Below are positions 5,730 to 33,939 of a stretch of 64,000 nucleotides of DNA, piece after piece (position 1 is the stretch's first letter; every line of letters starts with the position of its first letter). Position numbers and translations under genes: made by a program. Below the pieces are notes generated by a model. The model saw only the letters and a program-made list of their open reading frames with translations. It was not told where the DNA came from and ran no database searches. Source of the DNA: Cladocopium goreaui (lineage: Eukaryota; Sar; Dinophyceae; Suessiales; Symbiodiniaceae); contig CAMXCT020000383.1 in the NCBI GenBank assembly GCA_947184155.2, positions 115,684-179,683 of the forward strand, in the 5' to 3' direction.

Positions 5730-6359
5730 TGCTACGTAGTTTACCCTGAGGTATCAGAATGAAAATAGATGTAGGGCATTCCCGGAATTGATGTATTGGA
5801 ATCTGATAAAGTATAGGGAATGAAAAGAAAGAGTTCCATAGAATTTGGGACATGGCCACTGACACCAAGGGACAACCATCAACTCGGAGATGCCCGTGGA
5901 TTTGAATATGTCAAGCCTTGTCCAACGATTGAAGGTTTCCCTTAATCGAACCAAAGGAACCAATGCGACAATGCGACGGCAGTCGTTTGGGATTGAAATT
6001 TCGGGACCTCACCATGGTTAAACGAGGTTTTTTTCGTTGCAATGCTGGGCTATTGGAAGGTTCGCCATGTTTTTTTTCCACTAAGGTGGTTCAACACAAC
6101 TGCGTCAAACGTGGATGGAAAACACATGGAGATTTTGGGATGGAAAAACCTAGCCTAGCTTAGCTACATCAATGCTTTGTCCAATTATTTTTCAATTGAT
6201 TATATTCTGGTTGGTGGTTTCAACCATTTTTATTTTGCATAATATATGAGATAATCCTTCCCATTGACTAATATTTTTCAAAAGCCCGGGCTCAGGAACC
6301 TTCCAGAGGTAGGGCGGCTCTGACTAATCCTGAGGTGAGTTGTGCCGTGGCCGTTTGCA

Positions 6360-9300
6360 ATGGGGCCCATCTTCATACCTGGATCATGGAACATGCTGAC
6401 TATGGGGCAAAGAATCCCGGTTGTTTTCACAGTCATTTGTAGAGATGTTGAAGCTGGAAAACATTTAGCATTTTCATGTGATCGACCAGGACATCGGTTT
6501 TGGATCAATGGTGTGCTCCCTGAGGGTAGGGTTCTGTCTGGCATTGGTTTGGAGGTGACATCACTATCCCCCACCACCTTGAGCATGGGTGAAAAGGCCT
6601 GGGTTCACGCACTGCCTGACTGCGATTTCCACTCGTCCTCCAGTGTGATTGAAGTCTGTTCAGGTTTGGGTGGATTTTCCAAGGAAGCTGCAAGGTTAGG
6701 GTTGAAAGTCCTGTGTGGGGTTGATTGGAACAAAGCTTGGTCGCCCCTGTTCTCTGCACTGCATGATGGAGCGTCCTTGGTGGTTGGGGATCTGTCTGAC
6801 TTGCATGTTGCGTCTAGCCTTGCAGCCAAAGGGGGTTTTTATGCAACTTTGCTTTCAGGGATAGCATGTCAGCCACACTCCAAGCTTGGAGACAAAGGCG
6901 GGATGTCAGACTGCCGTGCAGAGTCATTGCCCAAGACTTTGAACTTGGCCTGGAATTTGCAGTGTCCAATTGTGGTGTTGGAATGTGTCCCAGAGATTCA
7001 AGGTGACTCCGAGGTTCAGCAGTTGCTTAGACAATTTGCCCTTGCCACTGGATACCGGATATCCCAACAAGTTCTCAGCCTTCAGAATGGGTGGTGCAAC
7101 CGTAGGTCACGTTGGTTTTGTGTGCTCACTGCACCCCTGCTTGGTCTTTGCGAGTTGAAGGACTTCCCAGTGTTTGATCAGTTTCGTCGAGTGCAAGATG
7201 TCATGCCAGGTATCCGTCATTGGCCTGAAGTAGATCATGCTCAAATTGACCTCAACTTGTATGAGCTTTCCAAGTTTTATGCATATGCTTCTGGGGGGAT
7301 TGAAAACTTGTTTTTGCGCCTTGGAGAAGCATGTCCGACTTTGCTTCACTCAGCAGGAAACCAGCTCTATGCCTGTGCTTGCGGTTGTAGGGGAGCCTTG
7401 TCTGAACAGCGCATCAGCTCACGTGGTCTCTTTGGAGTGCTTGTCCCACTTGCAACTTCGCAGGTACACATGCAAAGGGTCATGCAGCATTGTCGCTACC
7501 TGCACCCGCAGGAGATGTGGGCATTGCTTGGGGGAATCCCAGGCATTGATGTTGGTCTCAACCTCCGATTGGCCATGGCAGGCATAGGACAGGCAGTGTC
7601 GCCTATGATTGGTCTATGGGTCTTGTCTCAGGTCAAACGACATGTGGATGTTTTCTATGGTCTTGCACAACCCTGTCAGCCAGATCAAGTCCTTGACGCA
7701 TACATGAAGGAGCTGATTGTCACATGCCGGAATTGGTGGCCAGAACCGATTCCTCCCACTGTCCCAGCCACAGCCGAGCCAGAAGATCCCATTGAAGACA
7801 TTCGTCCGTCAATCCGAGTCCAAGTCCGTTGGTTGTCCGACATGTCTGTCCCTGTGTCCGTTGCCTGCCCAGAAGGAACCACAGGTCATGAACTTTTGGA
7901 AGCTGAACAGATCCTCACAGGTACAGCAGCTGAGTTGATGCTGTGGCAAAATGCAAAGGCATTGGACTTAAGCCAGCCTCTGTCAGATGGTGTTGAGATT
8001 GGAGTCGCTCCACTTGGGTTTGAAGCGCCGTGCAGTTCCAGTCTTGCTGTGCCATGTTGTCTGTCCCCTAGTGATGTTTTGGCCGAGTGTCATGAGCAGC
8101 CAGGCAGGGATTGGAATGTATATGCGGTCACGTCCATGGACCAACTGCTGACAAAAAGGGCGTCTCAGATGACCAAGATTGAGCGGGAAGCCATCCTGAG
8201 CTTGCAAGGACCAGTTTGGGGAGATGATGAGCTTTTGGTAGGCCTCCAGGGTATCGCACAACATACAGATCAGGATCAGCATGTCTTGGTTTGGGATCCC
8301 CTTCTTCTCACAGGGTTGGTTCTGTCCCCCAATGATCAAACATGGGCAAAGTTGTGTGCTACGCTTGGTGCAGTTGCCACAATCCTTACAGCAGTCATGG
8401 TTGATCATCACTGGTATCCTCTGGTGTGGCGTATGGACTCAGCAGTTGTCAGGCTTTTCACTTGCGGTGTTGTCCCAGCCCATGTCGAGGTGTTTGAAAC
8501 CTTGGCTACCAAGGTTGGTAGCTTTCGAGGGGTTGAAGGCCAGTGGTGCAACAAGCTTGTCTCATTCGTTCTGTCTGGACATTGTGGAGCTCTTGTGTTG
8601 TCATTTGCCAAGCACCTGCTTTGGGGTGAGTCTTTTCCGTCATCACAGGTTGAGTTGGAATGCATTGCCAAGCAGCTGCGGCAGGATTTTGCGTCTGGTC
8701 TGTCTGAAATGTGTTTCCGTCCTCAGTTGGCAGCCCTTGGACTTTCCGTGGTTGACCAACTTGCTGCGTTGCTCAGTGAACATGGGGTTGAGGCAGGGGA
8801 GTCAATTGCACGTGCAAAAGATGTGATTCAACACTTGGGGGATTCGCATGTCAGCAAGGCCTTGCAGGCAAACAATGCATGGAGGGAACTCAAATGGCTG
8901 GCCAATCAGATGAGACCACCGCTGGTGTTGATCAAGCCATCCGAACTCCAGCGGGCTATTGAAAAACGAGGCGGGACCTACCAAGTAGGCAATAAGCGCC
9001 ACAAAAGAGCCAAGGGACAGGGGAAGGGGAAGCATTTGCCCAGCCTAGATGCTACCATGTTGCGCTTAGAGCCTGGCCTTTTCCAGGATCAGCAAGATCA
9101 AGACTTGAGCCAAGTCGCAGTCGCCAGCATTGGTCCACAGGTTTCAGGTGTAGTGGTGCTCAACCAAGTCATGGCGGAGCCCTACTTGAAAGCCAACAGA
9201 TGTATGTCTGCAGGTGCCTTGGGTCTTTTTGTTGTCGATGCCACCGTCCCATCCGCCACCACGTTGCCTGTGTCACCAGCCCGTGTCCCTTTGATGTGCA

Positions 9301-10748
9301 CAGCCAATTCCGAGCCGTTGCTAGTTGATGGACTTCTGTATCAGTTGGGTGCACAACATGTGAAGCGCTCTATGCCAAGGGCAGGATGTACAGTGCAAGC
9401 AGTAGCAACATGTGTCGTAAAAGCATTGGTTTTTCGTGACATGACTGATGAGAGTTGGCAGCAGGTCTGTGCACACCCTTTGAGGCATATCTTCAGCAAG
9501 GTCAGCCCTTTGCTACCATGTGAAGATGATGAGTGCCCGGGTTGCGAAGCATGGCACCAAACTATGCAGTATCCAGTTGTCTCGCCTGTCTTGGAAGCAT
9601 GGGGAAAACAATGGATGAAGCTCAATTACCAGTATTGCCCTTCTGACCAGGCCGATGTTTTTGGGGTTCATCTGCGATTGCCTGAGGTGCTGCAATGTCA
9701 GGTCCAAGCCTTCAGTGGTTTTCAGGGTGTCTTTCTGGAGCCTCGGTCATTGGACGGCAAGAAGCCTTCCGATCAGTTTCAGGTGATTTGGATGGCTAAG
9801 ACCGACATCTCTCAGCTCATGATGCAGCGCCAGTCCATTCCAGCAATTTGCGGACTTGCCAGGATGGGTTCGAAATTGGGATTGCGTTGTCAGATTTCTA
9901 ATGCAGCCGAAGTGTATGCCAAGGTCAAGCCAGGCCAGACCTACCTGCCTTCTGGTGACAAGCATTCGTACCTAGTGGGGCCTTTCCCTTTTGGAACTTT
10001 GAAGTCATCAGTCGCCCATGCTTTCGCACAGAGCGGATGGGTGGCCAGGCCTGTCCAGCCAGTTGGAACACATGATCACTTGCAAGGGTTGATGTACAGG
10101 GTTCACGCAGTGTCAGCACCTCCTTCGAAAGTGCTGCACATGACACATGGTGATGTTGTGGTGACACAAGAGGGGCTTCCTCCCAACAATGCGCCACTGG
10201 TTCCTAAAGTGCTTGCATCACCGGCCACTGTAGCTATGGTCACCAAGGACCAAGAGGTTGATCATTTGCAGCTTCATGACCCATGGGCACCAGCAATCAA
10301 AGGACACAAAGCAGGTCCAGTGCCAATTCAGATAGGCAACCCTATCGAAGATATGGAGCAGCGGGTGGTAGCAGCAGTGTTGGCTAAGATGCCTGTCAAG
10401 GGTATGGAGGTGGATCAGGATGACAGCCAGCCCGACCGGGTTAGCAAGTTGGAACAGCAAATGCAGGAGCTCCATCATCACACACAGAATTTGGGTCACA
10501 CAGTGCAGCAGCATCATGCCGAACACTCTCAGCAACTGCAGGAAGTTCAGACACAGCTTCAGCAGCAGCATTCGCAGTTTGATGCCGCCATCCAAGCACA
10601 GGCCTGCCAAATCCAGGGTTTTCAGGACACCTTCCAAGAGCAGTTCCGACAGCAGGTTCATCATCAGCAGTCAATGTTAGATGGAATGTTCCAAAAACAG
10701 ATGAACCAATTTGAAAGCCTGCTCACCAAGCGTGCGAGGCAGGAGTGA
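6360..10748 (+). CDS. LINE ORF1: C5 DNA methyltransferase, Ulp1-like region, coiled coil
   Basis: The frame is open from a GTG at 6342, but the first ATG is at 6360, which I prefer (1462 aa). Residues below count from 6342. Methyltransferase: motif I VCSGLGGFS (105-113); catalytic-loop motif IV SGIACQPHS with Cys176; motif VI LECVPE (213-218); motif VIII-like NRRSRWFCVL (253-262); C-terminal RYLHPQEMWALLGGIPG and GQAVSPMIGLWVL (385-428), the target-domain and motif X region. All key residues of a C5-cytosine methyltransferase are present. A second region has WGDDELLVGL (626-635), HHWYPLVW (689-696) and HCGALVL (747-753), the order of tryptophan-acid, His-Trp and Cys-Gly boxes of C48/Ulp1 cysteine proteases; this is tentative. 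Residues about 1360-1460 are Gln/His-rich coiled coil, as in many LINE ORF1 proteins. No stop or frameshift seen. Likely role: a self-encoded activity acting on element or host DNA in the nucleus (inference). Confidence 0.85.
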   Translation: MGPIFIPGSWNMLTMGQRIPVVFTVICRDVEAGKHLAFSCDRPGHRFWINGVLPEGRVLSGIGLEVTSLSPTTLSMGEKAWVHALPDCDFHSSSSVIEVCSGLGGFSKEAARLGLKVLCGVDWNKAWSPLFSALHDGASLVVGDLSDLHVASSLAAKGGFYATLLSGIACQPHSKLGDKGGMSDCRAESLPKTLNLAWNLQCPIVVLECVPEIQGDSEVQQLLRQFALATGYRISQQVLSLQNGWCNRRSRWFCVLTAPLLGLCELKDFPVFDQFRRVQDVMPGIRHWPEVDHAQIDLNLYELSKFYAYASGGIENLFLRLGEACPTLLHSAGNQLYACACGCRGALSEQRISSRGLFGVLVPLATSQVHMQRVMQHCRYLHPQEMWALLGGIPGIDVGLNLRLAMAGIGQAVSPMIGLWVLSQVKRHVDVFYGLAQPCQPDQVLDAYMKELIVTCRNWWPEPIPPTVPATAEPEDPIEDIRPSIRVQVRWLSDMSVPVSVACPEGTTGHELLEAEQILTGTAAELMLWQNAKALDLSQPLSDGVEIGVAPLGFEAPCSSSLAVPCCLSPSDVLAECHEQPGRDWNVYAVTSMDQLLTKRASQMTKIEREAILSLQGPVWGDDELLVGLQGIAQHTDQDQHVLVWDPLLLTGLVLSPNDQTWAKLCATLGAVATILTAVMVDHHWYPLVWRMDSAVVRLFTCGVVPAHVEVFETLATKVGSFRGVEGQWCNKLVSFVLSGHCGALVLSFAKHLLWGESFPSSQVELECIAKQLRQDFASGLSEMCFRPQLAALGLSVVDQLAALLSEHGVEAGESIARAKDVIQHLGDSHVSKALQANNAWRELKWLANQMRPPLVLIKPSELQRAIEKRGGTYQVGNKRHKRAKGQGKGKHLPSLDATMLRLEPGLFQDQQDQDLSQVAVASIGPQVSGVVVLNQVMAEPYLKANRCMSAGALGLFVVDATVPSATTLPVSPARVPLMCTANSEPLLVDGLLYQLGAQHVKRSMPRAGCTVQAVATCVVKALVFRDMTDESWQQVCAHPLRHIFSKVSPLLPCEDDECPGCEAWHQTMQYPVVSPVLEAWGKQWMKLNYQYCPSDQADVFGVHLRLPEVLQCQVQAFSGFQGVFLEPRSLDGKKPSDQFQVIWMAKTDISQLMMQRQSIPAICGLARMGSKLGLRCQISNAAEVYAKVKPGQTYLPSGDKHSYLVGPFPFGTLKSSVAHAFAQSGWVARPVQPVGTHDHLQGLMYRVHAVSAPPSKVLHMTHGDVVVTQEGLPPNNAPLVPKVLASPATVAMVTKDQEVDHLQLHDPWAPAIKGHKAGPVPIQIGNPIEDMEQRVVAAVLAKMPVKGMEVDQDDSQPDRVSKLEQQMQELHHHTQNLGHTVQQHHAEHSQQLQEVQTQLQQQHSQFDAAIQAQACQIQGFQDTFQEQFRQQVHHQQSMLDGMFQKQMNQFESLLTKRARQE

Positions 10749-10775
10749 TGGTGCCCAGTCACACAGCTGACTACC

Positions 10776-12560
10776 ATGGGTGATTGGGTTAAATCGGTTG
10801 GTGGTCACCTTGGCCTTTTTGGCCCAGAAGTGCTCTTCTTTTTGGTGTTTGCCCTCGTTGGACTTGGTGGGCTTTTGGCCATTTGGATTGCAGGCCACTC
10901 CTGTCTTTGTGCCGTGGGGGTGTTTTCTGAAAGGGTTCCACAGGGGACTAAGGTAGCAACACAGATGTGCAGGGACACGCTGCTCTCTCAGCCAAATGAG
11001 GACGTCCCGCGGATGGCATCTTGGGTTTCACATCTTTTTGGCCATTTTGGCGTTTTTGCAATTTTGGAGCTTCTCTGTCTTTGCGATGCAGTGCCGAATG
11101 CTGGGGGTTGCCCAGAGGGTGATGCTGGTAGGGATGGTAGAGCTTGGACTTTGCGCATGGAGCATGACAAGAATGGGCTCAGCTACAAGGCTTGGTTCTA
11201 CAGTGAGAGCGCCACACAGGGCCTAGGAAGTTTGATGGGAGCTGGTTTGGATTGCATAGCAGGGGCAGTTCAGCAAGTCTCTAACATCAAGTGTGCCTTG
11301 CGTAGTGGACTTACTCACAATGTAGGAGCACAGACACAGTCGGAATTGCCTCAACATGTTCACCAGGTTGGATGTGGTTTGGTATCACAGGGTGCACTGT
11401 GTCTTTGGGTCGGGTATCTGGTTTGTCCCTTGTCGCAAGTGTTGGTGAGCCACGTTGGACTTCCCTTTTGGCTCTTGGCCTTCTGGATTGCCGGCCACGC
11501 ATTGCAGATGTTAGGTTTGGTAATCACCCTGGGGACACTTCAGAGACCGTTCCGGGGTCAGCTTCTCAGTGGCTTAGCAGAATGGGAAGGAGCACCAGTG
11601 CACAAGTGCCATGCGGATGCCCATACAAAGGGCTTTTCATTTTTTGGCCATTTTGGCCACCTTTCAGTTTTGGACTCCAATTGCTTGCACCTTGGTCAGC
11701 AGCGACCTAGCCATGAGAAGGGGAATGCTAAGTTGGATGCTAGGCCCACTGCCAAACCTGCCCCACCCAGGGATTTGCCTGGCCATCGATGGTCGGCTCT
11801 GCAACGTAGGGGTAGCTTCAGTTGGTTGTTCTGGTTTTGTATCTTGGGCGGTCTTTTTCGTTTTGGTGAAGCGGCTCACCCGGGGCCTGCTCCAGTGTCG
11901 GACACATGGACTTTTGGACTTGCCAATGCGTCAGGCCTAACTACGAAAGTGGACCAGGTTGCACACCAAGAGGGCCAAGCATGGGTCTTCTCTGAGACAC
12001 ATCTCTCCAAGCAGGGTTATCGGTCTTTCAAAAAAGGTCTCCAGTGTCTGAAGACCAAATGGAAATACTTGATACCAGGTGCACCATGTCCAGTCAGGAA
12101 GACCGGCCAGGCAGGAGTTCACTCAGGTGTTTTGCTTGTTTCCTCTTACCCAGCCAGAGCACTGCCGCATAGTTTTGACTCCGAAAGCTTTGCAACCGGC
12201 CGCATGCAAGTGGCGGGAATGATGGTTGGTTCAGATTGGGTCACTGTAGGGATGCTGTATGGGGTTCCGTGCAATGCCACGCATCATTTTGCAAGGTATC
12301 AGACAGAAACAATGTTGGCTGACCTTATAGATCGAGTGGCATGTCAAGCTTCAGGTCCCAGAATCATTGGAGGTGATTTCAATTATGCCACCCATGAACT
12401 CAGTCAGGTGCAAAGGCTCCAGGAATATGGTTTTCGTGAAGTGCAGGACCTTTGGGCATGGAAAACAGGGGTTTCAGTCAGTCCAACCGGCAGAGGCACT
12501 AAACGGATTGACCAGCTGTGGATTTCTCCAGAGCTTCAAGTGGTGTTGGAAGAGGTATAG
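10776..12560 (+). CDS. LINE ORF2, N-terminal part: APE-type endonuclease
   Basis: ATG at 10776 follows the ORF1 stop by 27 bp. Residues 20-105 and 215-305 look like two copies of one hydrophobic module (LLAIWIAGH and LLAFWIAGH, then LFGHFG and FFGHFG). FRFGEAAHPGP (362-372), a motif common before the endonuclease in dinoflagellate LINEs, precedes the endonuclease-exonuclease-phosphatase fold: SETHL (406-410), GGDFN (532-536), KRIDQLW (576-582). The endonuclease nicks target DNA to prime reverse transcription. The frame stops at a TAG at 12558-12560, but the final ADHA box of the fold continues in another frame (from about 12557), so a 1-nt indel has broken the ORF. Confidence 0.85.
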   Translation: MGDWVKSVGGHLGLFGPEVLFFLVFALVGLGGLLAIWIAGHSCLCAVGVFSERVPQGTKVATQMCRDTLLSQPNEDVPRMASWVSHLFGHFGVFAILELLCLCDAVPNAGGCPEGDAGRDGRAWTLRMEHDKNGLSYKAWFYSESATQGLGSLMGAGLDCIAGAVQQVSNIKCALRSGLTHNVGAQTQSELPQHVHQVGCGLVSQGALCLWVGYLVCPLSQVLVSHVGLPFWLLAFWIAGHALQMLGLVITLGTLQRPFRGQLLSGLAEWEGAPVHKCHADAHTKGFSFFGHFGHLSVLDSNCLHLGQQRPSHEKGNAKLDARPTAKPAPPRDLPGHRWSALQRRGSFSWLFWFCILGGLFRFGEAAHPGPAPVSDTWTFGLANASGLTTKVDQVAHQEGQAWVFSETHLSKQGYRSFKKGLQCLKTKWKYLIPGAPCPVRKTGQAGVHSGVLLVSSYPARALPHSFDSESFATGRMQVAGMMVGSDWVTVGMLYGVPCNATHHFARYQTETMLADLIDRVACQASGPRIIGGDFNYATHELSQVQRLQEYGFREVQDLWAWKTGVSVSPTGRGTKRIDQLWISPELQVVLEEV

Positions 12561-13594
12561 CATGGGACAAATGGGCGGATCATGCCACCGTGGAGGCTAC
12601 CTTCAAGATGCATGGTAAGCAACAGGTTAGCCAGGTATGGCGGCAGCCACAACCATTTCCTTGGCCCACCAACTGGGATTGCCAGCTGGATTTTGATATT
12701 ACTGCAGACTCCACCATGGCCTATGCACAATTTTGGCAGCAACTTGAAACACAGGCCCAGTGCTGGAATGCGCAGCAGGGTAAATACATATCCAGGGCCC
12801 AGTGCGGGAGGGCACAAACACTTGCCACTCAGACCCGGAAATGGCAGGGGTCACCACCGAAATTGGGGAGGGAAGGGGAAGTTCAGCCCAAATACTTTGG
12901 CATCAGTCTGCAGCATGCAAGGTACTTTCGCCAGCTCAGGCGGTTGCAAGCGCTCACACAGCTTTTGAAGAAAGGCCTTGCTTCGGATAATGCCATCACC
13001 AATGCCCAGGAGACATGGCGGGCAATCAGGGGTGCAGCGGGCTTTCCGGGGGGGTTTGTACACTGGTGGGCTCAGCATGGACTTGGATTTACGCTGGCCT
13101 CACCGTTGCAGTTGCCCTATTTTTTGCCGGCGCTGGAGGTGGTTGAGTCTCTGTTTGAGGGTTTCCACAGTTTTGTCAAAGCCTATGAAGGGCGCCTTGC
13201 CCAACGAAGGTACCAGTATGGTACTGAGCGCCGCAGAGAAGATATGAATCTGGTTTTTCAAGACTGCAAAGCAGAGCCACCCCCAGTAGTTGACACACTC
13301 CTGGACAGGGTTGAGGTTGCGGTTGAAGAGGTGAGACCAGAGGATAGCTCGGTAGTTTTGGTGCGCCCAGTTGAGTTGTTGCATGGACTTCCCGTAGTGA
13401 TTCATGGACATGCTCATGAGGTGTTGGTACACGAGCATGATCAGGTGTGGCTGTCTTCAGTGGAAGGGCTGGCTCCAGGACATGTTTTAACTCAGGAAAG
13501 GGTTGTCATGACGGATGCTGCAGTTTTGGATCGCTTCCGACAGACCTGGGAGCCTAGGTGGAACAAGCCTTCTCATGTAGCGCCAGGCCAGTAG
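12557..13594 (+). pseudogene. LINE ORF2, linker between endonuclease and RT (frameshifted)
   Basis: After the shift the reading frame gives IAWDKWADHATVEATF, the end of the endonuclease domain, then about 330 residues of linker rich in Gln and Trp with no domain I recognise. It ends at an in-frame TAG (13592-13594). The same frame then continues without interruption into the reverse transcriptase, so the TAG is most simply a point nonsense mutation rather than a true ORF end. Readthrough cannot be excluded. Confidence 0.75.
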
Positions 13595-16500
13595 GATCAG
13601 ATCTGTGGTTTCATCGAGCGTGTGTTGCGACCTCAGCAGTGGCCTGACACACCATGGACTTCCTCCAGGTTTATGGACTTGGTTACTCATAAAAAAGTAG
13701 TATCCGCCAAGGGACCGGATGGAGTTTCCCAGCCGGATTTGGCTGCACTGCCCCCGACAGCTCAACAAGCAATGGTCAAGCTTTTCAATGCGGTGGAGCA
13801 AGGTATGCCATGGCCTGCACAGGTGGCCTCAGGGTTTGTAGCCAGCTTAGCAAAGAATCCAGGAGCTCAATCGGTAGATGAATATAGGCCTGTCACAGTC
13901 TATAGTCTCTTGTACAGAGTTTGGTCGTCTGCCAGGGCCAAAGAAGCACTGCGAGTTTTGGCTGAAATCGTCCCACAGAGCGTCCAGGGTGGCCTCCCAG
14001 CAAGGCAAGCTAGGGCAGTTTGGTATACCACGGCACAAGTTTTGGAATCAGCCTTGGTAGATGCGGTTCCTTTGCATGGCATCCTGATGGACATCAGACG
14101 GTGCTTCAATGCCATACCTAGGTATCCACTTTGGTTTGCGTTGCGGGTGCTTGGATTTCCCACGGGGGTCTTGCGTGCTTGGGTTGCGTTTGTGTCCGGT
14201 CAGACCAGAAGATTCAAGGTGCGTCTCTCTACGGGGGAGCCAGTCTTTTCTGTGTGTGGACTACCAGAGGGTTGTGCGCTGTCTGTTTTTGGAATGGTCA
14301 TCATCGATTGGATTTTGGATCTTTGGCTGAATGCAACACAGCCAGGCATTGGACTTCATGCATTCATCGATGATTGGGGGGTTTTGTTCTCATCACATGA
14401 CCAATTCCAAGCAGTATGGCAGGCAGTCTTGGATTTTACTTCTGCCCTTGACCTTGAACTGGACTTTCGTAAAACCAAGGTTTGGAGTACCCAATCATTG
14501 GCGCGGCACACCTTCCGCCAGAGGAGTCTCCAGGTCACACTCGCAGCTAGGAACTTGGGTGCCCACCAAAACTTTTCCAAGCATTCCTGGAATTCCACCC
14601 TTCAGGCAAGACTCCGCACTATGCCAGACATATGGACAAGGCTTCGAGCAAGCCTCTCACCATACAGAACCAAACTGCAAGCAGTCAGAATGCTCGCTTG
14701 GCCCAGAGCATTGCATGGAATCTCCGTGGTTCATTTGGGTCACTCACACTTCAAGACCCTGAGGGCAGGGGTCATGAAAGCCCTCAATGCTAACCGTAAA
14801 GGGGCAAACCCGATGCTCCACATGGCCAGTAATTCGCTGGAAACAGACCCTGAAGCCTGGTCTATTCTTCAGACGTTGCGAGATGCCCGGGAGCTAGGTG
14901 GTTTTGACAAGGTAGATGCCATGCTTTCCGTTTTTGCCTCGGCAGACTTGGACTTACCTGCCAATGGTCCTACAGCCGTCTTGTTAGCCAGGGTGCGTAG
15001 ACTTGGTTGGGCGGTTGGTACAAATGGGTTGGTTCAAGATCGGTATGGAGTGTTCAGTGTCATGCAGGTAGGATGGGATGAGTTGTATCAAAGGGTTGCC
15101 ATGTCTTGGGGCCATGTCATGGGACAGGAAGTTGCACACAGAGCGTCGTTTCAAGGCATTGAAATGGCAGACCCTCAGGCAGTCACCAGTGCACTGGCTC
15201 ACTTTGGCACAGCAGATCAGGTCTATCTCAGGTGTCACTTAGATGGTACGCTCTACACGCAGAATGGCCGGGCTCATTTCATGTCTGAGGTCAGTGGTCA
15301 ATGCCCCTGGTGCACAAGCAAGGATGGTTTTTTCCATAGGGCTTGGACTTGTCCCTTCTTTGCCGACTGCAGGACCCACATGACTGCGGAACAGCTTGCA
15401 CAAATCCCAGTCTTGCCACAATGTTTAACCTCTCATGGTTGGGCTGTCCTACTGCCAGAATGGGAGGTCTATGCCAGGTGGTTGGTGCAGGATCATGGTT
15501 TTTCATGCATGTCCCCCATAAATCAGTGCCAGACAGACCCCTCCCATACGGTTGAGTTATTTGTGGATGGAACAGCAGCAAACCCACAGGAACCGAAACT
15601 GAGGTATGCAGCATGGGCAGTCACGGTGGCTCAACTTGGCAGTTTGAACAATCAGGTCGTCCTAGGGGGTCATGTGCAGGGCCTCAGTCAAACGCCCTTT
15701 CGGGCTGAACTTTCGGCAGTGTTGGCGGCGCTCCTTTGGGCTAAAGAACAGGCACAGAAAGTACGCATTTGGACCGATTGCTTGGGCGTCCTGCGTGGAG
15801 TGAACAAAGTGAAACGAGGTGTTCCAGTGCGTGTGAACCGTGCGCACTCCGATCTCTGGTTGCGCATCCAAGGCTTGTTTGAAGAAGGCCACTTGGACAA
15901 TGTTCAGATGATGAAGGTTGTCTCTCACTGCAGTATCGACAAGGCTACATCACCGGTGGAAGAATGGGCTTATTGGCATAATGAGCTTACAGACCGAGCA
16001 GCGGCCAAGATCAACGACACCAGGGAACCGGTTTTTTGGGAAACGTGGAAGGGCTTGGCTAGCGCTTTGCAGGTGAACAGACAACTGCACAATGCGATCC
16101 TTATGGTTCTACTGAAGACGGGTCGGAAGGCTCACATGGCAGAACAACAAAAGGGCACGATGCCTGCACCCAAACCTAGGCCACTACCAGTCGGCTTGGC
16201 ACAGCAACCTGCAGCACCTGTTTTTTGGACGTTTCCTGAGCGAATGGTTCGTCGTTATCGACAACACAATGTTCAGATGGTTCATGACTGGTGGAGCCAA
16301 GTTGGCAGTAGATACATGGAGGGAGATGCCCCACTGACGATGGTCAGCGGAGTCCAGCTGTTTTGGGATTTTTTCCAGGCCACAGCCTACGAAGGACCGT
16401 GGGTGCACCAAAAGAAGTGGTATCACCAGGCACAACAGGTGCCGGAAGCTGGTAGGGTTTCATGGGGACAACGAATCAAACCTTTTTTGTTGTTGTGGAA

Positions 16501-16708
16501 AGCCTATCTTGGTTGCCATTCGGTGAAACTACCTCAAAAAATGACTCGTCCCAATTCTGCAGCCATTTCCTTGTTTTTGGTTTGTTACCGTTTACGTTTT
16601 CCCCCAGAAAGAATTGCCCTGTGTGATGCGGCGATCTTCGAGCAGCTGGGCCGTCAAGCGGCTTGCTCGGCTGACATCCAGGAGCTGAGGCCGGCAAGGC
16701 ACCGGTAG
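13595..16708 (+). CDS. LINE ORF2, C-terminal part: reverse transcriptase, zinc knuckle, RNase H
   Basis: Residues count from 13622. RT: SAKGPDGVS (28-36), motif A ILMDIRRCFN with Asp157, motif B GLPEGCALS (213-221), motif C FIDD (248-251). Zinc knuckle C-x2-C-x7-H-x4-C at Cys561, Cys564, His572, Cys577. RNase H: Asp649 (FVDG), Glu696 (FRAEL), Asp719 (WTDC), Asp791 (LTDRAA), so all four catalytic acids are present. A basic, Trp-rich tail of about 230 residues follows. No ATG sits at the start; the frame is continuous with the preceding segment apart from the TAG. It copies the element RNA at the nicked target. Confidence 0.88.
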   Translation, partial: DQICGFIERVLRPQQWPDTPWTSSRFMDLVTHKKVVSAKGPDGVSQPDLAALPPTAQQAMVKLFNAVEQGMPWPAQVASGFVASLAKNPGAQSVDEYRPVTVYSLLYRVWSSARAKEALRVLAEIVPQSVQGGLPARQARAVWYTTAQVLESALVDAVPLHGILMDIRRCFNAIPRYPLWFALRVLGFPTGVLRAWVAFVSGQTRRFKVRLSTGEPVFSVCGLPEGCALSVFGMVIIDWILDLWLNATQPGIGLHAFIDDWGVLFSSHDQFQAVWQAVLDFTSALDLELDFRKTKVWSTQSLARHTFRQRSLQVTLAARNLGAHQNFSKHSWNSTLQARLRTMPDIWTRLRASLSPYRTKLQAVRMLAWPRALHGISVVHLGHSHFKTLRAGVMKALNANRKGANPMLHMASNSLETDPEAWSILQTLRDARELGGFDKVDAMLSVFASADLDLPANGPTAVLLARVRRLGWAVGTNGLVQDRYGVFSVMQVGWDELYQRVAMSWGHVMGQEVAHRASFQGIEMADPQAVTSALAHFGTADQVYLRCHLDGTLYTQNGRAHFMSEVSGQCPWCTSKDGFFHRAWTCPFFADCRTHMTAEQLAQIPVLPQCLTSHGWAVLLPEWEVYARWLVQDHGFSCMSPINQCQTDPSHTVELFVDGTAANPQEPKLRYAAWAVTVAQLGSLNNQVVLGGHVQGLSQTPFRAELSAVLAALLWAKEQAQKVRIWTDCLGVLRGVNKVKRGVPVRVNRAHSDLWLRIQGLFEEGHLDNVQMMKVVSHCSIDKATSPVEEWAYWHNELTDRAAAKINDTREPVFWETWKGLASALQVNRQLHNAILMVLLKTGRKAHMAEQQKGTMPAPKPRPLPVGLAQQPAAPVFWTFPERMVRRYRQHNVQMVHDWWSQVGSRYMEGDAPLTMVSGVQLFWDFFQATAYEGPWVHQKKWYHQAQQVPEAGRVSWGQRIKPFLLLWKAYLGCHSVKLPQKMTRPNSAAISLFLVCYRLRFPPERIALCDAAIFEQLGRQAACSADIQELRPARHR

Positions 16709-16779
16709 TGCGAGCAAACAGAGGGGGCAACGGGGTCGCAAGGCTGCCCACTTGCTCTGCAATAAAGTGCAATAAAGTG
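16709..16779 (+). other. LINE 3' end
   Basis: A 71-bp 3' region ends in two units of AATAAAGTGC rather than poly(A), directly before the TSD. Short tandem 3' ends are seen in several LINE clades that prime without a poly(A) tail. Confidence 0.75.
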
Positions 16780-16841
16780 TAATATTTTTCAAAATGGTTA
16801 AAACCACCAACCAGTATTAGTTTTATCAACATATATCAACA

Positions 16842-27790: not shown

Positions 27791-28162
27791 GTGTTTTCAC
27801 GTGAAGATTTTGAGCGAACAGTCTGAAAGAAGACGTTCCCATGAAATGTGGGCTCAAGATAATAAGTGTCGGTGCTGCAATGAAGTTCGAAAGCCTCCTG
27901 CTAGCCACATTCTTGCAGCTTGTCCAGGTAGGAATCAAAAGCGGGATTCAGGAATCATCAGGAGAACTGAATCAGATCGAAACTTCCACTGTCGTATCCT
28001 GCCATTGTGATTGCCATTGCTATCCAAAACTCCTTCCCTTTGATCTCTCTGCTCTTGAGCTTGGAATTGGGCTGATATCTTTGCTTTGCCTCATCTGTCT
28101 TCCCTTCTCCATTCGAGTGGATACTTCCCAGCAGATAGATCCTAGCCCTCGACGGCGTGGAC

Positions 28163-29599
28163 ATGGAGTCATTGTCTCAGCTCGTGCATGGTCAGACCTT
28201 AGCTGTGTATTACAGTGACGACAATGTATGGCATGAGCGCCTTGCTTTGTGGAAGCAATCTGGCACACACTGGATGATATACACACCTGATTCCGATAGG
28301 TACGTAGAAGATCTTAGTGGCACAGATCCCGACGGTCCCAATAGGGTCAAGGTGAAAGGCGTTGACTTCAAGTATTGGTCACGAGTGGGAGGTTCAGCCT
28401 ACAGATTTCGGTCTTTTCCCTCTGAAGCTGACTTTAGAATGCTGCTTAAAGACTCCTTCCGCGAGCTCTCCAAGGAGGTGGTTGACTTTGACCGGGATTG
28501 GAGGCCCAGTAGCATCATGGACATGAAGGGCCAGACCCATGCGGCAGAAGACTTCCTGGGAGGCCTGTTGACCACTCATCGCATTACCTGCAAGGGTGGT
28601 GGAGTCCTCACGTCTGATCCTCTGAGCCCTGAAGATGCCCGTCACAAACAGCAGAAGATGATTCGCGATTTTGTGCCGGCAGATCTGCCGCCCGTGGGCA
28701 AAGAATGGACATCCCTGGAAAGCAGTGCTCCATACCAAAGAGGTGAGGTGCTTACTATTGATGCCAAAAAGGATGTCATGAACGGCGACCTGGCCCTCAT
28801 TCAGACTGAGTCTGGGTGGTTGGTTGCCCGGCTTATGACCCAGACGGAGCGTGACAACATGCTGCAAGATTCCAAGCAGGCGGCTTCTTCCTCTCATGCC
28901 CCAGAAGCACCAGCTCCTACAGCAGAAGACAAAGAAGCAGATATAGGCTCGGATGCCCGCACTCTCTTCATTGACTATAATGAGCAGAATTGCCGATACA
29001 AGGAGTGGCGCAAGGTGGTGATGGAGAGCCGTGACTACAACTACAGCGACTGGCCCCATCAAGGACCTAGCACAGTGCTACATCTCCTGACACACATGCA
29101 TTGCTTTGGCGGTGATCCCCGTCAGTGGTTGCAGCTCTGGGCTCGCCAGAAAGGCGTGTATGAGAGTGACCGGGTCATGCATGAGCTCCGTTGCCTCACC
29201 GGCATTTTCTACCATGGCGGCACCTTTGACCAGCTCAACATGCCCGTGCTCAGCTCTATGGAGGTGGCTGCTCGCCGTATTCAGTCCATTGTTGAGGCCT
29301 ATTCAGCTGGTCCGCCTGGTGCTTCAGATTGGTCCAACTCCAAACTCTTCACTGGGTATGTTGGTCCAGATGATCTGGTTTCTCCATCACTCCGCAGCTG
29401 GGCGGTGCGCCGTGGGAAAGAATAAGTTGAAATTTCCCAAGCCAGAAGCAAGATGAGAGAATTGAAGAAAGCGGCTGCAGCATCTGTCTCCGATGAGGCT
29501 GCATTAGCTGTGGCTGAGGGCAGTGCACCATCAGGCGCCTCCACCAAGCGACGGGCCCGTGGCCGTGGCAGAGGGTTGGAGGCGCCGGGGAGCCCATGA
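28163..29599 (+). CDS. gag-like ORF of the DIRS-like element (one internal stop)
   Basis: The first ATG is at 28163. About 420 residues run to TAA at 29423-29425; the same frame then continues for 57 more codons (through KKAAAASVSDEAALAVAEGS and a basic KRRARGRGRG tail) to TGA at 29597-29599. The TAA is therefore probably a nonsense mutation in one longer protein. The Trp-rich N-terminus (HERLALWKQSGTHWMIYTPD) and the region SRDYNYSDWPHQGPSTVLHL have no family I can name. Position before the RT suggests a structural, RNA-binding role (inference). Its stop overlaps the next ATG as ATGA. Confidence 0.65.
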
Positions 29600-31260
29600 G
29601 CTTGGGAACGGCCGCTCCTGATTTGGGCCCAGAGTCCGGCCGAGACAACTGCATGATTGGCCCGCAACGGATCTTTCCGTTACCTCTGGTGGAGATGCCA
29701 ACAGCCCGTCAGACTTTTGGACGGCGTCAAGCACAGGGGCAGTCTTTGAGGAGGAGAATTCATTTTGAGATGAACGAGAGACTCCGTTCACTGAATTGGA
29801 TGCATGGTTTCAGCAGCCCGGACTCTTCACCCGGGCGTCCCAATCAGATCCAAGGAGAAGTGCTGGGACATGTCCGAAGGCTTGTTGAGGATGCTGGAAA
29901 TTTGGGTGACCTTTCACACCCGCCATCGATGGAGGCAGCTCTTGGCAGTTTGCTCCAAGGGAGGACGGATTATTTTGAACCTTCCTCTCCAGTTTCACTC
30001 GCGCACTACAACCTCGAGCTCATCTCGCTGCCTAGTTCTCTTAAAGGAGCTCCTCGTGCTGAGGACTTGCTAGGAGCAGATGACCTTCGATATTTGAAGG
30101 AGCAAGAGCGCATAATCCGTGCAGAGCCCCACAAAGATGTCCATGTTAGTCCTTACTGGGATCCGGCCTTGAAGTATAACCAGAGAAATTATCGAAGGTT
30201 TTTGCAGAAGCTGAATGACATATCCTATCTTGATTTCACTTTGGAACCCTCCGACCATGCGGGAGTTTTCTTTGTGTGGAAGTCCGACAAGAAACGGATT
30301 CGCATGATCATCGATGGCCGTTCTGCAAATATGCGATTTCATGATCCACCTTCAGTTTCTTTGAGCACAGCAGAAACTTTCAGCAAGATTGAGATTGATA
30401 TTCCTGAGGAGCTGGTCCACGACCACGTCCAGAAGGAAGCTTTCTTGGATAGCATCCGCATTTATGCAGGGCTCTCAGATGTCAAGGATTGTTTCCATAG
30501 GATCCGACAGCCTCGGTGGCTAGCAAAGTTTTTCTGTTTCATGCCCATTGAAGCCAGACACCTCAATTTAACGGGTACAGTTTTGGAAGGGAAAACGCTG
30601 TCCAGCAAAGACCTGGTATATCCAATGCCGGGTTCTCTGTGTATGGGTTGCTCATGGTCACTTTTCTTCGCCCAAAAGATCAACGAGCGTCAGTTTTCGC
30701 TGTCTCCGCAGCTAGGAAGTTCCCGATTGATTAGTGATCGTTCTCCTCCTTTGGTTATTAATCCTTTTGATCCTGACATGCTTCACCACTATGTATACGT
30801 AGATAATTTGGGTGTCATTGGGCAAAACCAAGAACTTGTTCACCAGGTAGTCCAGGCAATGCAGGATCATTTCAACAGCAAGGATTTGTCGTTGCATCCA
30901 GGTGAAGTGCAGTGTGATGACATCAAAGCTTTGGGTATTCATTTGGATGGGAGAAACAAACGAACGAGGGTGGCACGCGAACGGCTCCACAAGGTCAGAC
31001 AAGCCCTGCGTTGCCTACTCCATCGAGGACGGTGCTCTGGCAAGGTGCTTGAAATTGTGATAGGGCATGCCACCTTTTGTGGCCTTGGCTCTGTCAGTCT
31101 TCCATTCCTCTTACAAATTTATTCAACAGCATTACAATTCTCCAGCAGTTATTTGGGATTCCGTCCTTCAAGAATTGCGTGTTTTTGCAGGTCTCATGGT
31201 TTTCTTGGAACACAACTGGGGAAAGGGCTGGAACCAGTTGGTTTCAACTTCAGATGCTAG
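29596..31260 (+). CDS. DIRS-like reverse transcriptase
   Basis: ATG at 29596, overlapping the gag-like stop. Residues: RMIIDGRSAN (236-245), motif A region GLSDVKDCFHRI with Asp295 and Asp298, motif B PGSLCMGCSWSLFFAQ (345-360), motif C YVDN (401-404). The second Asp of the usual YxDD is Asn; whether this is a family trait or a loss cannot be told here. The last part, after about 31085, is out of frame: the expected continuation (ALSVFHSSYKFIQ) is in the next frame. Confidence 0.8.
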   Translation: MSLGTAAPDLGPESGRDNCMIGPQRIFPLPLVEMPTARQTFGRRQAQGQSLRRRIHFEMNERLRSLNWMHGFSSPDSSPGRPNQIQGEVLGHVRRLVEDAGNLGDLSHPPSMEAALGSLLQGRTDYFEPSSPVSLAHYNLELISLPSSLKGAPRAEDLLGADDLRYLKEQERIIRAEPHKDVHVSPYWDPALKYNQRNYRRFLQKLNDISYLDFTLEPSDHAGVFFVWKSDKKRIRMIIDGRSANMRFHDPPSVSLSTAETFSKIEIDIPEELVHDHVQKEAFLDSIRIYAGLSDVKDCFHRIRQPRWLAKFFCFMPIEARHLNLTGTVLEGKTLSSKDLVYPMPGSLCMGCSWSLFFAQKINERQFSLSPQLGSSRLISDRSPPLVINPFDPDMLHHYVYVDNLGVIGQNQELVHQVVQAMQDHFNSKDLSLHPGEVQCDDIKALGIHLDGRNKRTRVARERLHKVRQALRCLLHRGRCSGKVLEIVIGHATFCGLGSVSLPFLLQIYSTALQFSSSYLGFRPSRIACFCRSHGFLGTQLGKGLEPVGFNFRC

Positions 31261-31876
31261 CGAAACTGGCTTTGGTGTGTGTACAGCGTTTTGGCCTACT
31301 GCGGAGGTCGCAGCAGCTGGCCGCATCAACGAGCGAAGCCGTTTTCGGAGGACTGCCGGGCATTCGGCCAGAGAATCTGCCCTCACTTCAGCTGGTTTTG
31401 TTCGTGATGAAGTTTCAGGTAAATGGGTTGTCAACGAAATAGACAGTGCAGAATTTTTAGACAAAGCAGGGTGGGAAGTCGACCCATGTTTTTCTGAGAT
31501 TCCTGCTAAACTACTATCTCGTGATCTCTGGACCCCCAAAGTTTCTGGCACATGGAAGTATTCAGCGCACATTATGGAGCTGGAAGCAAGAGCTTTGGTA
31601 AAGTCTTTAGAGCGCATCTGCCATTCTAGGTTTGGGCATGACAACCATCAACTTTTACTCACTGATTCTTTGTCCATGGCTTTGGCATTTGACCCAGCAC
31701 GGTCTCGCAGTTACAGAGTCTTACAACAGATCCGGCGGTTGGCAGCTCTGGCTCTATCCCGTAATGTCAGTCCTCATGTTCGTTGGGTGCCGTCAGAGTT
31801 AAACTCGGCCGATGAGCCCAGCCGAACGACAGCAGCTGACAAGTCAAAAAAATTGATAGATTTGATCCCAACAGCG
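31086..31876 (+). CDS. DIRS-like RNase H region
   Basis: Continues the RT in the +1 frame. FAGLMVFLEHNWGKGWNQLV leads into STSDASETGFGV, HIMELEARALVKSLERI, LLTDSLSMALAF and HVRWVPSELNSADEPSR, the typical D-E-D-D spacing and the closing NSADEPSR box of DIRS/Ty3-type RNase H. The frame stays open to 32467, but coding signs fade where the recombinase ORF begins, so the true end overlaps it. Confidence 0.75.
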
Positions 31877-31877
31877 C

Positions 31878-33208
31878 ATGTCCAAGCGCCGCCGGGTCTT
31901 GGAAGCTCCTCAAGACCAGCAGCAGCAGCTGCGCTCAACCCGGCGTCGCACTCTGCTGCCAGGCGAGGTGAAACCAGAGCCCCGCAGGAAATCAATGAGC
32001 AGGGTTTTGCCTGCGGCCAACCTGTCAACGCGGCTGAACAGCACGCCTCTGAAGCAAGAGTGGGCAGCCCTAGACCAATCTCACCTGCCCTTCCCTGTGG
32101 CTTCAAAACGCAAGAGGTCCAACAGCTCGGACTCGAGCTCCAGCAGTTCAGACCCTCCGGCAGTGAAGAAGATGCAAGCGAACCTGATTCGGAGACGGCG
32201 GCGTCGCCTTGCACTCTATGTCACAGAGATTTTGGAGGCCAAGTCTCAGGGGTTGGCTCTTCTGGAAAAGAAAGCAGTTCAGGCCAAAACAGAGGCATAC
32301 TATACCAAGGAATACACAGAGTTCATGTCGTTTGTGAAAGAGAGTCGGCTCACTGTGGGTTCTGCAGCTTCAATGGATTCGGCACTTTGCCAGTACATGA
32401 CTTCACAGTTTCTGGCGGGCCACCCTTCACACAAGGGGGACAAGCTGGTGGCTGCTGTTTGCCATAGCCATGCGCAGTTCAGCAAGCACGGGCCACAGTC
32501 CCTCCCCCGCACAATTCGTGCCATGAAAGGGTGGAGGCGTTTGGCCCCAGGTCAGTCTCGCAAGGCTTGGCCTCTTGCAGTTTGGAGCGCGGTGGCTATG
32601 GAAATGGTGCGCGTGCATCAGGTGCGCATGGCGCTGTTCACTTTGACAGCTCTTGCCAGCTACGCACGCCCCTCAGAACTATTAGCTTGCAAAGTTTTTT
32701 GCCTGGTCCAGCCGACAGCTCAAGTCACGGACCATTGGGCTATCCTTCTGTGCGCCCAGGAAATGGCACACCCTTCAAAGACTGGGGAGTACGACGACTC
32801 AGTTCTTTTGGACAACCCCTACCTCCTGCCTTGGGCCAAGCACTTGTTCAAGGAGCTCAAGACTCAACCCAAAGACCAGCCCCTGTGGGATTTCGGATAC
32901 TCCGACCATTTCCATGTCTTTACCCAGGTGAGCCGGTGAGCAAGAGACTGTCATTGACGGTGACGCCGTACCAACTGCGGCACTCCGGGCCTTCAATCGA
33001 CCGTGCCCGCAACTTGAGAAGCTTGCTGGAAGTTCAGAAACGTGGCAGATGGAAAAGCCAGAAGAGCGTGACCAGATACGAGAAATCTGCACGGCTGGCT
33101 GCCAACTTCCAAGAGCTACCTTTGCAAGTTCAACGCCACTGCCTGCACGCCGAAAGTCTTCTCGCGGATGTGATGTTGGGCCGAGCCACGCCCGTGACCC
33201 CGCCTTGA
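31878..33208 (+). CDS. tyrosine recombinase (frameshifted)
   Basis: ATG at 31878 overlaps the previous ORF in another frame. A basic and Ser-rich N-terminus (KRKRSNSSDSSSSSSDPP) is followed by a SAM-like core-binding region and the catalytic part: Arg in LASYARPSELLACK, then, after a frame change at about 32920-32940, YQLRHSGPSID and GRWKSQKSVTRYEK with the nucleophile Tyr. The Arg, the Arg-His box and the Tyr are all present. It would cut and join circular cDNA into the genome. The original frame ends at a TGA at 32937-32939; the C-terminus ends at TGA 33206-33208. Confidence 0.8.
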
Positions 33209-33939
33209 TTCGGCGAAAGCACTTTCGCAAGTATGTGGCAGATTTGTTTGCTGGCACTGGTGGGGTTGCTCATCAGGTGCGGCGGCTTGGATTTTCAGCA
33301 AAAGAATGGGATGTGCAAAGGGGTCCTGACTTTGACCTCACCTCTCCCACGGTTGTGCACCGTTTGTTGAAAGACATTCGAAATGGCAGAGTTTTGGCTG
33401 TCATGATGTCTCCTCCAAATGCCAGTCTTTCACCTGCCAGAGATCGTCAGAGAGCCATCCGGTCCAAACGTTTCCCTTGGGGCCTTCCACAACGATTTTT
33501 GACGCCAGAAGATCGCAGAAAAGTTACAAGTGAGAATGCCTGCCTTAGAACATGTTTCTCTCTCATATCTATTTTGCAGCAACACAAGATACCTTGGATC
33601 TTTGCACAGCCAGCTAGCTCTAAAGTTTGGTTTTTCCCAGAGATGCAAGAATTACAGCAGCACCCTCAATGCCATTCAATGACGACAGATCTCTGCCAAT
33701 TCAGAACTATGTGGCGGAAACCAATCACCTTATTGTTTGGAAATTTGGACTCGCAGGACACTGCGCGGCTGCTGCGCTCTTGCACTGGGCTCCGAGGCCG
33801 CTGCTCTCGCACTGACCAGGCCCACTTTCAACTCACGGGGTGGCACCACTCAGGAGTCCGGTGGTCTCAAGTTGCTCAATCTTTTCCTTTAGAGTTTTGC
33901 AAACATTTGGCCTTTGTTTTAACTGCCCCTTCCCAATAG
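33209..33939 (+). CDS. methyltransferase ORF of the DIRS-like element, degenerate motifs
   Basis: The frame is open from 33049, but the part before 33209 overlaps the recombinase. Motif I is excellent: YVADLFAGTGGVAHQVRRLG. The motif IV position reads MMSPPNASLSPARD, where a C5-cytosine enzyme has Pro-Cys and an adenine enzyme has (D/N/S)PP(Y/F). The motif VI position reads IPWIFAQPASS, where C5 enzymes have Glu-Asn. The rest (WFFPEMQELQ, LLFGNL) keeps the methyltransferase layout. It is either a different chemistry or an inactive remnant. DIRS elements often carry a methyltransferase-like domain at this place. It stops at TAG 33937-33939. Confidence 0.7.

Follow-up and report, generated by a model that had tools for sequence, protein, structure and literature searches.

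A SymbioLINE-Dnmt retrotransposon of Cladocopium goreaui that looks specific for an introner-like repeat, with a methyltransferase and a divergent Ulp1-like domain in one ORF1 and a probable HDV-like ribozyme fold at its 5' end

We analysed a stretch of 64,000 nucleotides from the dinoflagellate Cladocopium goreaui (GenBank assembly GCA_947184155.2, contig CAMXCT020000383.1, positions 115,684 to 179,683 of the forward strand; hereafter the window), in which a long interspersed nuclear element (LINE) combines a C5-cytosine methyltransferase and a divergent Ulp1-like domain in its first open reading frame (ORF1). The element is a member of SymbioLINE-Dnmt, a dinoflagellate LINE family whose ORF1 methyltransferase is described in the main text of de Mendoza 2018 (PMC5890265); the capture of a methyltransferase by dinoflagellate retrotransposons, noted as known in a first-pass annotation of the window made from the sequence alone, is therefore already known. 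Taken as a whole, the sequence evidence makes it probable that we are dealing with a target-specific SymbioLINE-Dnmt element with an apurinic-type endonuclease, inserted in an introner-like repeat, bearing a hepatitis delta virus (HDV)-like ribozyme at its 5' end and the two domains in ORF1, and following the life cycle proposed below. ORF1 residues are numbered from the GTG at 6342 throughout, and the element and the first of its domains are placed as follows:

6284 to 16779, forward strand: the LINE, 10,496 bp, with exact 15-bp duplications at both bounds
6360 to 10748, forward strand: ORF1, 1462 amino acids from its ATG and open back to the GTG at 6342 (open reading frame listing)
6642 to 7631, forward strand: C5-cytosine methyltransferase domain, residues 101-430, with catalytic Cys176, Glu214, Arg255/Arg257 and Gly416-Gln417
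7374 to 7391, forward strand: CxCxCR cluster, residues 345-350, inside the methyltransferase region and zinc-knuckle-like, its three Cys and Arg present in 29 of 29 copies

In the open reading frame listing ORF1 is a single open frame on the forward strand (6342-10748, 1468 amino acids from the GTG), and its first ATG is residue 7, at position 6360. Sister copies, at roughly 30-92% identity, hold both domains and the C-terminal region in one frame, and inter-copy distances in these three ORF1 regions correlate with r 0.97-0.98 across 23 copies, those among 30 in which all three are covered. An origin of the domains from unrelated neighbours, which the first-pass annotation had named as the outcome that would undo its reading, is thereby excluded, as both regions share one frame and evolve together.

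The methyltransferase assignment holds. The peptides on which it had been based (VCSGLGGFS, IACQPHS, LECVPE, the Arg-rich RRSRW and GQAVSPMIGLW) all lie in frame, and Pfam matches PF00145 to ORF1 residues 101-263 with an E-value of 2.8e-11. In an alignment of 29 copies, motifs I, II, III, IV, VI and VIII and a motif X-like GQ are present; all 29 copies keep the Cys of motif IV, the two Arg of motif VIII and the GQ of motif X, and 28 keep the Glu of motif VI. Searched against solved structures, a profile of the 29 copies finds Dnmt2 (E 6.8e-14) and M.HhaI (E 1.7e-13), the difference between the two being trivial. The domain had also been called complete, and the series of motifs agrees with this, but the match to known structures is limited to its first 210-230 residues or so. 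Canonical methyltransferases read PCQ in motif IV and ENV in motif VI; here the residue preceding the catalytic Cys is Ala, Ser, His or Asn and never Pro in the 29 copies, and motif VI has the form ECx in 28 of them, two unusual departures that weigh against the combined reading. Relatives of the LINE methyltransferase were absent from the viral and prokaryotic contigs searched.

The methyltransferase probably methylates either the new DNA copy or the RNA of the element. That the element might methylate its own copies had been proposed in the first-pass annotation, and base composition is consistent with this proposal in the window copy, where the observed/expected ratio of CpG is 0.40 in ORF1 and 0.46 in ORF2 compared to 0.54-0.57 in the flanks, and that of TG/CA is 1.58 in ORF1 compared to 1.23-1.26. 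Two results weigh on the other side. Among five ORF1s from other clades, CpG is low in two (0.43 and 0.44) but undepleted in three (0.55, 0.56 and 0.58), and a published yeast assay of a SymbioLINE-Dnmt domain gave no DNA methylation, an outcome that its authors regard as inconclusive (PMC5890265, main text). It is a serious, if less favoured, possibility that the substrate is RNA, either tRNA or the element's own, instead of DNA: the top structure match, Dnmt2, is a tRNA methyltransferase, the yeast result points the same way, and RNA methylation is raised by the authors of that study in its main text. Against an RNA substrate, the CpG depletion and TG/CA excess of the window ORF1 fit DNA methylation, although host enzymes could also cause them and not all clades share them.

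The middle region of ORF1 carries the second domain:

8157 to 8741, forward strand: candidate divergent Ulp1-like domain, residues 606-800
8409 to 8411, forward strand: His690, putative catalytic His, in 70 of 70 copies
8436 to 8438, forward strand: Asp699 (His+9), Asp in 25 of 25 window-clade copies and in none of 45 others
8583 to 8585, forward strand: Cys748, putative nucleophile, in 70 of 70 copies

There is fair evidence that this region is a divergent Ulp1-like domain, joined to its relatives by a distant profile relationship. At least 140 matches to it were scored among 473 candidates in the genome, and the alignment examined here comprises 70 copies, namely the window copy (which is also L009), 24 others of its clade and 45 from other clades; of the 30 loci fetched, five partial or broken ones (L013, L017, L033, L035 and L038) were omitted. 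Asp629-Glu630, Asp652-Pro653, His690-Trp691, Pro693, Cys748 and Phe755 are invariant in the 70 copies, and Gly749 is kept in 69. The peptides WGDDELL, HHWYPLVW and HCGALVL, in which the first-pass annotation had recognised the box order of peptidase family C48, lie in frame.

To relate this region to known proteases, we used C48 proteins of the same genome (L045, L048 and L051; Pfam E 1.6e-8, 8.5e-7 and 4.2e-5) as a bridge. A profile of these own-genome proteins finds SENP1 in the Protein Data Bank (PDB) with an E-value of 1.1e-7, and 39 diverse LINE copies align with them in hhalign over 140 columns (E 0.0049), and in this alignment the DP, HW, acid and CG boxes fall in register. The corresponding score of 24.5 is reached by one of 498 column-permuted profiles, none of which aligns more than 70 columns. 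Reversing the profile gives 10.8, and among 14 decoy windows elsewhere in ORF1 no score exceeds 16.5. Adding SENP1 and SENP8 fragments brings the score to 30.8 (E 4.2e-4), as high as none of 500 permuted profiles. The domain is under purifying selection: the ratio of nonsynonymous to synonymous substitution rates (dN/dS), rough because many dS values are high, is 0.058-0.146 here and 0.040-0.084 in the methyltransferase, in each case for the 8 of 12 pairs that were not saturated.

Several results count against an Ulp1-like domain. Pfam C48 (PF02902) matches no member of two LINE alignments, a PDB sequence-profile search of the middle region returned nothing below E 1, and the probability that hhalign itself assigns is just 34% even with SENP1 and SENP8 added. 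Furthermore, two earlier comparisons with Ulp1-like proteins, made with shallower profiles, fell short of significance, which was obtained only with trimmed, deeper alignments. A phenol hydroxylase match in the PDB (E 1.3) was rejected as chance. In viral contigs, neither relatives of the LINE middle region nor relatives of the own-genome C48 proteins were found.

Each clade set has a fixed acid, at different places. In the other clades, the position 19 residues after the His (His+19), where the canonical acid stands, is Asp or Glu in 45 of 45 copies and is preceded by Trp in 43; at His+9 these copies never have Asp and once have Glu. In the 25 copies of the window clade, His+19 is Gly, Ser, Ala or Gln and never an acid (Gly709 in the window copy). 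An oxyanion Gln or Asn upstream of Cys748 is fixed in neither clade set at residues 738-747. Compared to peptidase family C48 (Ulp1/SENP), the domain thus has the same order of DP, HW, acid and CG boxes, with roughly the spacing of the own-genome C48 proteins, but differs in that Pfam does not match it, the oxyanion Gln is not fixed and the window clade has no acid at the canonical position. The Ulp1-like identification stands as a distant profile relationship with invariant His and Cys; as a protease the region is putative, given the missing database matches, the unfixed oxyanion residue and the lack of the canonical acid in the window clade.

The window-clade domain may be a reduced or non-catalytic version, and a substantial minority chance attaches to the broader view that the region is a pseudoenzyme, that is a structural or ubiquitin/SUMO-binding module retaining the fold and some residues without cleavage. 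The loss of the canonical-position acid in every window-clade copy, the unfixed oxyanion residue in both clade sets and the silence of known protease models all favour such a module. It is opposed by the invariance of His and Cys, by the conserved acid and its preceding Trp in the other clades, and by the invariant Asp that the window clade has instead, ten residues earlier. Less likely still, and in our judgement improbable, is that the middle region is unrelated to Ulp1 and that the HW and CG boxes arose by coincidence in a LINE-specific domain. Pfam C48 has 12 reported places in the genome and none of them is one of these LINEs, the first profile comparison gave a probability of 0.2, and a six-sequence C48 profile scored 15.5 where permuted profiles reached up to 22.1; against this, the trimmed and deeper alignments, with 140 columns and the four boxes in register, beat all but one of 498 permuted profiles in one test and all 500 in the other. 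As an Ulp1-like domain, the region most likely has ubiquitin- or SUMO-like proteins as its targets, on which it would act or to which it would at least bind, either in the ribonucleoprotein or where the element inserts. The first-pass annotation had put forward processing of ORF1 or action on SUMO-like host marks, both putative roles. Processing of an ORF1-ORF2 polyprotein was rejected as its main role because ORF1 and ORF2 are separate frames, so that such processing is not needed.

Two side observations may be added. The C48/Ulp1-like proteins L045, L046, L047, L048, L049 and L051-L053 are encoded by long open frames and occur in this genome as near-identical copies; they are perhaps parts of mobile elements. 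Before the Ulp1-like domain, ORF1 residues 490-560 (7809-8021) evolve faster and read like a ubiquitin-like fold; one of 30 members has a weak Pfam match to TUG-UBL1 (E 0.062), and the fold is only a guess.

We then turn to the insertion site. The LINE splits a short inverted-repeat element, whose halves form its flanks; this host element begins with CTGGTTGGTGGTTT at 6207, and the complement of that sequence ends at 16814:

6203 to 6206, no strand: TATT, 4-bp duplication at the left flank of the host repeat (partner 16815-16818)
6207 to 6283, forward strand: left part of the host repeat (introner-like), from the inverted repeat CTGGTTGGTGGTTT to TGACTAATATTTTTCAAAA
6269 to 6283, forward strand: 5' copy of the LINE target-site duplication, TAATATTTTTCAAAA, an exact 15-bp repeat
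16780 to 16794, forward strand: 3' copy of the LINE target-site duplication
16780 to 16814, forward strand: right part of the host repeat (introner-like), ending in ACCACCAACCAG
16815 to 16818, no strand: TATT, 4-bp duplication at the right flank of the host repeat

The window contains 13 matches to the terminal repeat of this host element, compared to 0.01 expected, which from their contexts represent the occupied copy and ten unoccupied ones (at 2556, 5709, 19418, 20082, 22456, 22990, 24382, 40867, 47267 and 62897), or about one per 6 kb. An exact 38-mer representing the empty site is found 1,189 times in the genome, and its reversed control not once. Among the 100 repeats listed, neighbours on a contig are co-oriented in 31 of 33 pairs, an arrangement that intron elements should show where genes are arrayed one way.

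The LINE looks target-specific. Of 41 copies examined for their insertion site (L001-L008, L039-L043 and L106-L133), 39 lie in one introner-like repeat family, at either of two positions that depend on the clade and in the orientation of the repeat; because junctions were searched on the LINE sense strand only, all 39 share one orientation relative to it. In the window clade, 27 of 28 fetched 5' junctions begin directly after the core GACTAATATTTTTCA. This core stands upstream in exact form in seven of L001-L008, and in all 20 of L106-L125 as well (16 exact, four with one or two changes), where the left inverted repeat was also counted and found upstream in 19 of the 20; L114 and L117 share flanks, as do L121 and L123, and these are duplicates. 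In the other clades, 12 of 13 copies likewise begin inside this repeat, a few to about 20 bases after the left inverted repeat, the exact start being placed by eye.

A number of observations do not fit this picture smoothly. Two copies lie outside the repeat, L042 from the other clades and L002 (contig C1523) from the window clade, although the 14-bp duplication of the latter still begins with TAAT. None of the ten unoccupied window copies has the exact GACTAAT core (GACTAATATTTTTCA), so that the target is a sub-variant of the host repeat. Exact 4-bp duplications flank two of the six repeat copies displayed (the occupied one and that at 2556), and the splicing of the host repeats as introns is inferred. 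It is most improbable that the association reflects survival, with insertions elsewhere purged, in place of an endonuclease preference: insertion into spliced repeats would be less harmful, but purging would not pick a single position in a 100-bp repeat, and such a position is common to 27 of 28 window-clade copies, with a second one common to 12 of 13 copies from the other clades.

At the 5' end of the LINE, its initial 51 bases can be fitted to a nested pseudoknot of the HDV type:

6284 to 6334, forward strand: predicted HDV-like ribozyme fold, with P1 GCCC (6284-6287)/GGGC (6312-6315), P2 CUCAGGA/UCCUGAG, a P3 hairpin and a putative catalytic C at 6324 in CUAA

We searched 5' ends with a descriptor requiring a P1 of 4-6 bp, a P2 of 5-7 bp, a P3 hairpin and C-N-R-A before the 3' strand of P2, its specificity being judged from shuffles only. 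With the first range of start positions, 25 of 37 unique 5' ends fit (24 of 25 in the window clade and 1 of 12 in the others), compared to 15 of 740 shuffled sequences. Once the range was widened to the other-clade junction, 11 of the 12 other-clade ends fit (shuffled, 3 of 120), giving 35 of 37 in total; L042, tested alone, fits too.

Covariation points in the same direction. In an alignment of 17 of the 25 window-clade 5' ends, 85.1% of cells are paired compared to 76.5% in shuffles, and 11 of 17 pairs have changed on both sides compared to 5.1; the covariation score is 0.394 compared to 0.206. None of 500 shuffles equals any of these three values, and further pair types are matched by 2 of 500. 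Pairing falls to 38-58% when the partners are slid, a comparison that favours the named pairs because they were taken from one of the 17 aligned sequences. Conversely, P2 is displaced by one or two columns in three of the 17 rows, a shift that acts against the named pairs. The putative catalytic C in J4/2 is invariant in all 17 ends, the CNRA around it being required by the descriptor.

We conclude that the 5' end of the LINE is a probable HDV-like ribozyme fold, putatively self-cleaving. Weighing against this conclusion, the descriptor was composed after the sequences had been seen, the other clades fitted poorly with the first start range, neither L120 nor L039 fits, and Rfam, including its HDV-type models, gave no credible match. 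In the window copy, the top-scoring P1 of the script lies in another register than the alignment-supported GCCC/GGGC.

The remainder of the element consists of the C-terminal part of ORF1, ORF2 and the 3' untranslated region:

9054 to 10271, forward strand: conserved C-terminal ORF1 region, residues 905-1310, with no PDB match by profile
10389 to 10748, forward strand: ORF1 C-terminus, Gln-rich and coiled-coil-like by sequence, with Pfam matches only weak and sub-threshold
10776 to 12560, forward strand: first frame of ORF2, apurinic-type endonuclease (PF03372, residues 438-590; Pfam)
12518 to 13594, forward strand: second part of ORF2, in a different frame and with an in-frame stop at its end (open reading frame listing)
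13622 to 16708, forward strand: remainder of ORF2, reverse transcriptase (PF00078, 13874-14488) and RNase H-like region (Pfam)
16709 to 16779, forward strand: 3' untranslated region, ending in CAATAAAGTGCAATAAAGTG, without poly-A

The RNase H-like region scores 24.3 bits with PF00075, just under the cut-off of 25.8, and PDB and Pfam profile searches of the C-terminal ORF1 region gave nothing usable. The sister element on C1523 has the same LINE ends as the window copy, with its own duplication; both have target duplications and no poly-A tail.

Known target-specific elements include a Tx1-clade LINE that inserts into a DNA transposon. R2-type elements are target-specific, co-transcribed with their host locus, equipped with a 5' HDV-like ribozyme and inserted in ribosomal DNA (rDNA). 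Judging by the anatomy of the element, we regard a parasitic life cycle of the R2 kind as the most likely. The LINE would be transcribed as part of a host intron, and the 5' ribozyme would cut at the 5' end of the element, freeing the LINE RNA, which the ORF1 protein would coat. ORF2 would then nick a new, empty repeat and copy the RNA there by reverse transcription. The methyltransferase would mark the new copy or the RNA, and the Ulp1-like domain would act on or bind ubiquitin- or SUMO-like proteins. Finally, the host would splice out the nested insertion, which would therefore do little harm. Against this reading, the ORF2 of the window copy is broken by a frame change and one stop. The window LINE would share target specificity, co-transcription and a 5' ribozyme with R2-type elements, which differ in their rDNA target, in their type of endonuclease and in having no methyltransferase.

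More tentatively, and with somewhat less confidence than in the combined reading given at the outset, we suggest a LINE lineage that lives inside introners. Its members would insert in sense at a fixed base of an intron-making transposon, be co-transcribed with host genes and be released by the ribozyme before or instead of splicing, while one ORF1 with a methyltransferase and a ubiquitin/SUMO-type isopeptidase would mark copies and handle host silencing marks at the site. Why a retrotransposon should keep a DNA methyltransferase has been a question since 2018; the apparently fixed insertion positions, the probable self-cleaving 5' end and the coupling to an Ulp1-like domain make it testable. 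Introners may, we suggest, be safe harbours for larger elements.

Much of this anatomy agrees with what the main text of PMC5890265 describes for SymbioLINE-Dnmt: a methyltransferase in ORF1, followed downstream by an ORF that encodes endonuclease, reverse transcriptase and RNase H, target duplications without poly-A, CpG depletion and many intronless copies under purifying selection. In the genome analysed here, at least 115 methyltransferase matches were scored among 645 candidates. The published tree places the methyltransferases of the family in a Symbiodinium-specific orphan clade. According to the same text, SymbioLINE elements reside mostly in introns and intergenic regions. The differences are the Ulp1-like domain, the repeat-specific insertion and the ribozyme, none of which that main text describes; the words protease, peptidase, Ulp1, ribozyme, target site and introner have no occurrence in it (supplements being outside this scope). 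The first-pass annotation had known of no description of both domains in one LINE ORF1: its methyltransferase half proves to be published, and its Ulp1-like half has no mention there. Outside supplements and most subscription papers, we found no paper reporting an Ulp1-like domain or target specificity for these LINEs, the ribozyme having been sought only in the main text of PMC5890265.

Ulp1-like domains do occur in other target-specific elements. As far as PMC4640811 describes them, the non-long-terminal-repeat elements NeSL and Utopia-1_TSP have an N-terminal Ulp1-like protease; they differ from the window LINE in belonging to clades with a restriction-like endonuclease and in holding the protease within the reverse transcriptase protein, and no methyltransferase is mentioned for them in the part of that source considered. 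The same source gives Tx1-clade LINEs as target-specific with an apurinic-type endonuclease, as in the window LINE, the likeness being one of endonuclease type and target specificity; the target of the window LINE, an introner-like repeat, sets it apart. Symbiodinium introners are described as short elements having inverted repeats and 4-bp duplications (PMC9860276, in part), like the host repeat.

Elsewhere, the dinoflagellate spliced-leader motif occurs 172 times in the 1.17-Gb assembly and its reversed control not at all, which agrees with a dinoflagellate host. The window also holds a possible second element, perhaps a DIRS-type retrotransposon, at 28157-33939, whose reverse transcriptase match is weak (E 0.022, below the cut-off). 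Within it, the frame at 33049-33939 matches no Pfam family and contains VADLFAGTGG, which resembles motif I of methyltransferases.

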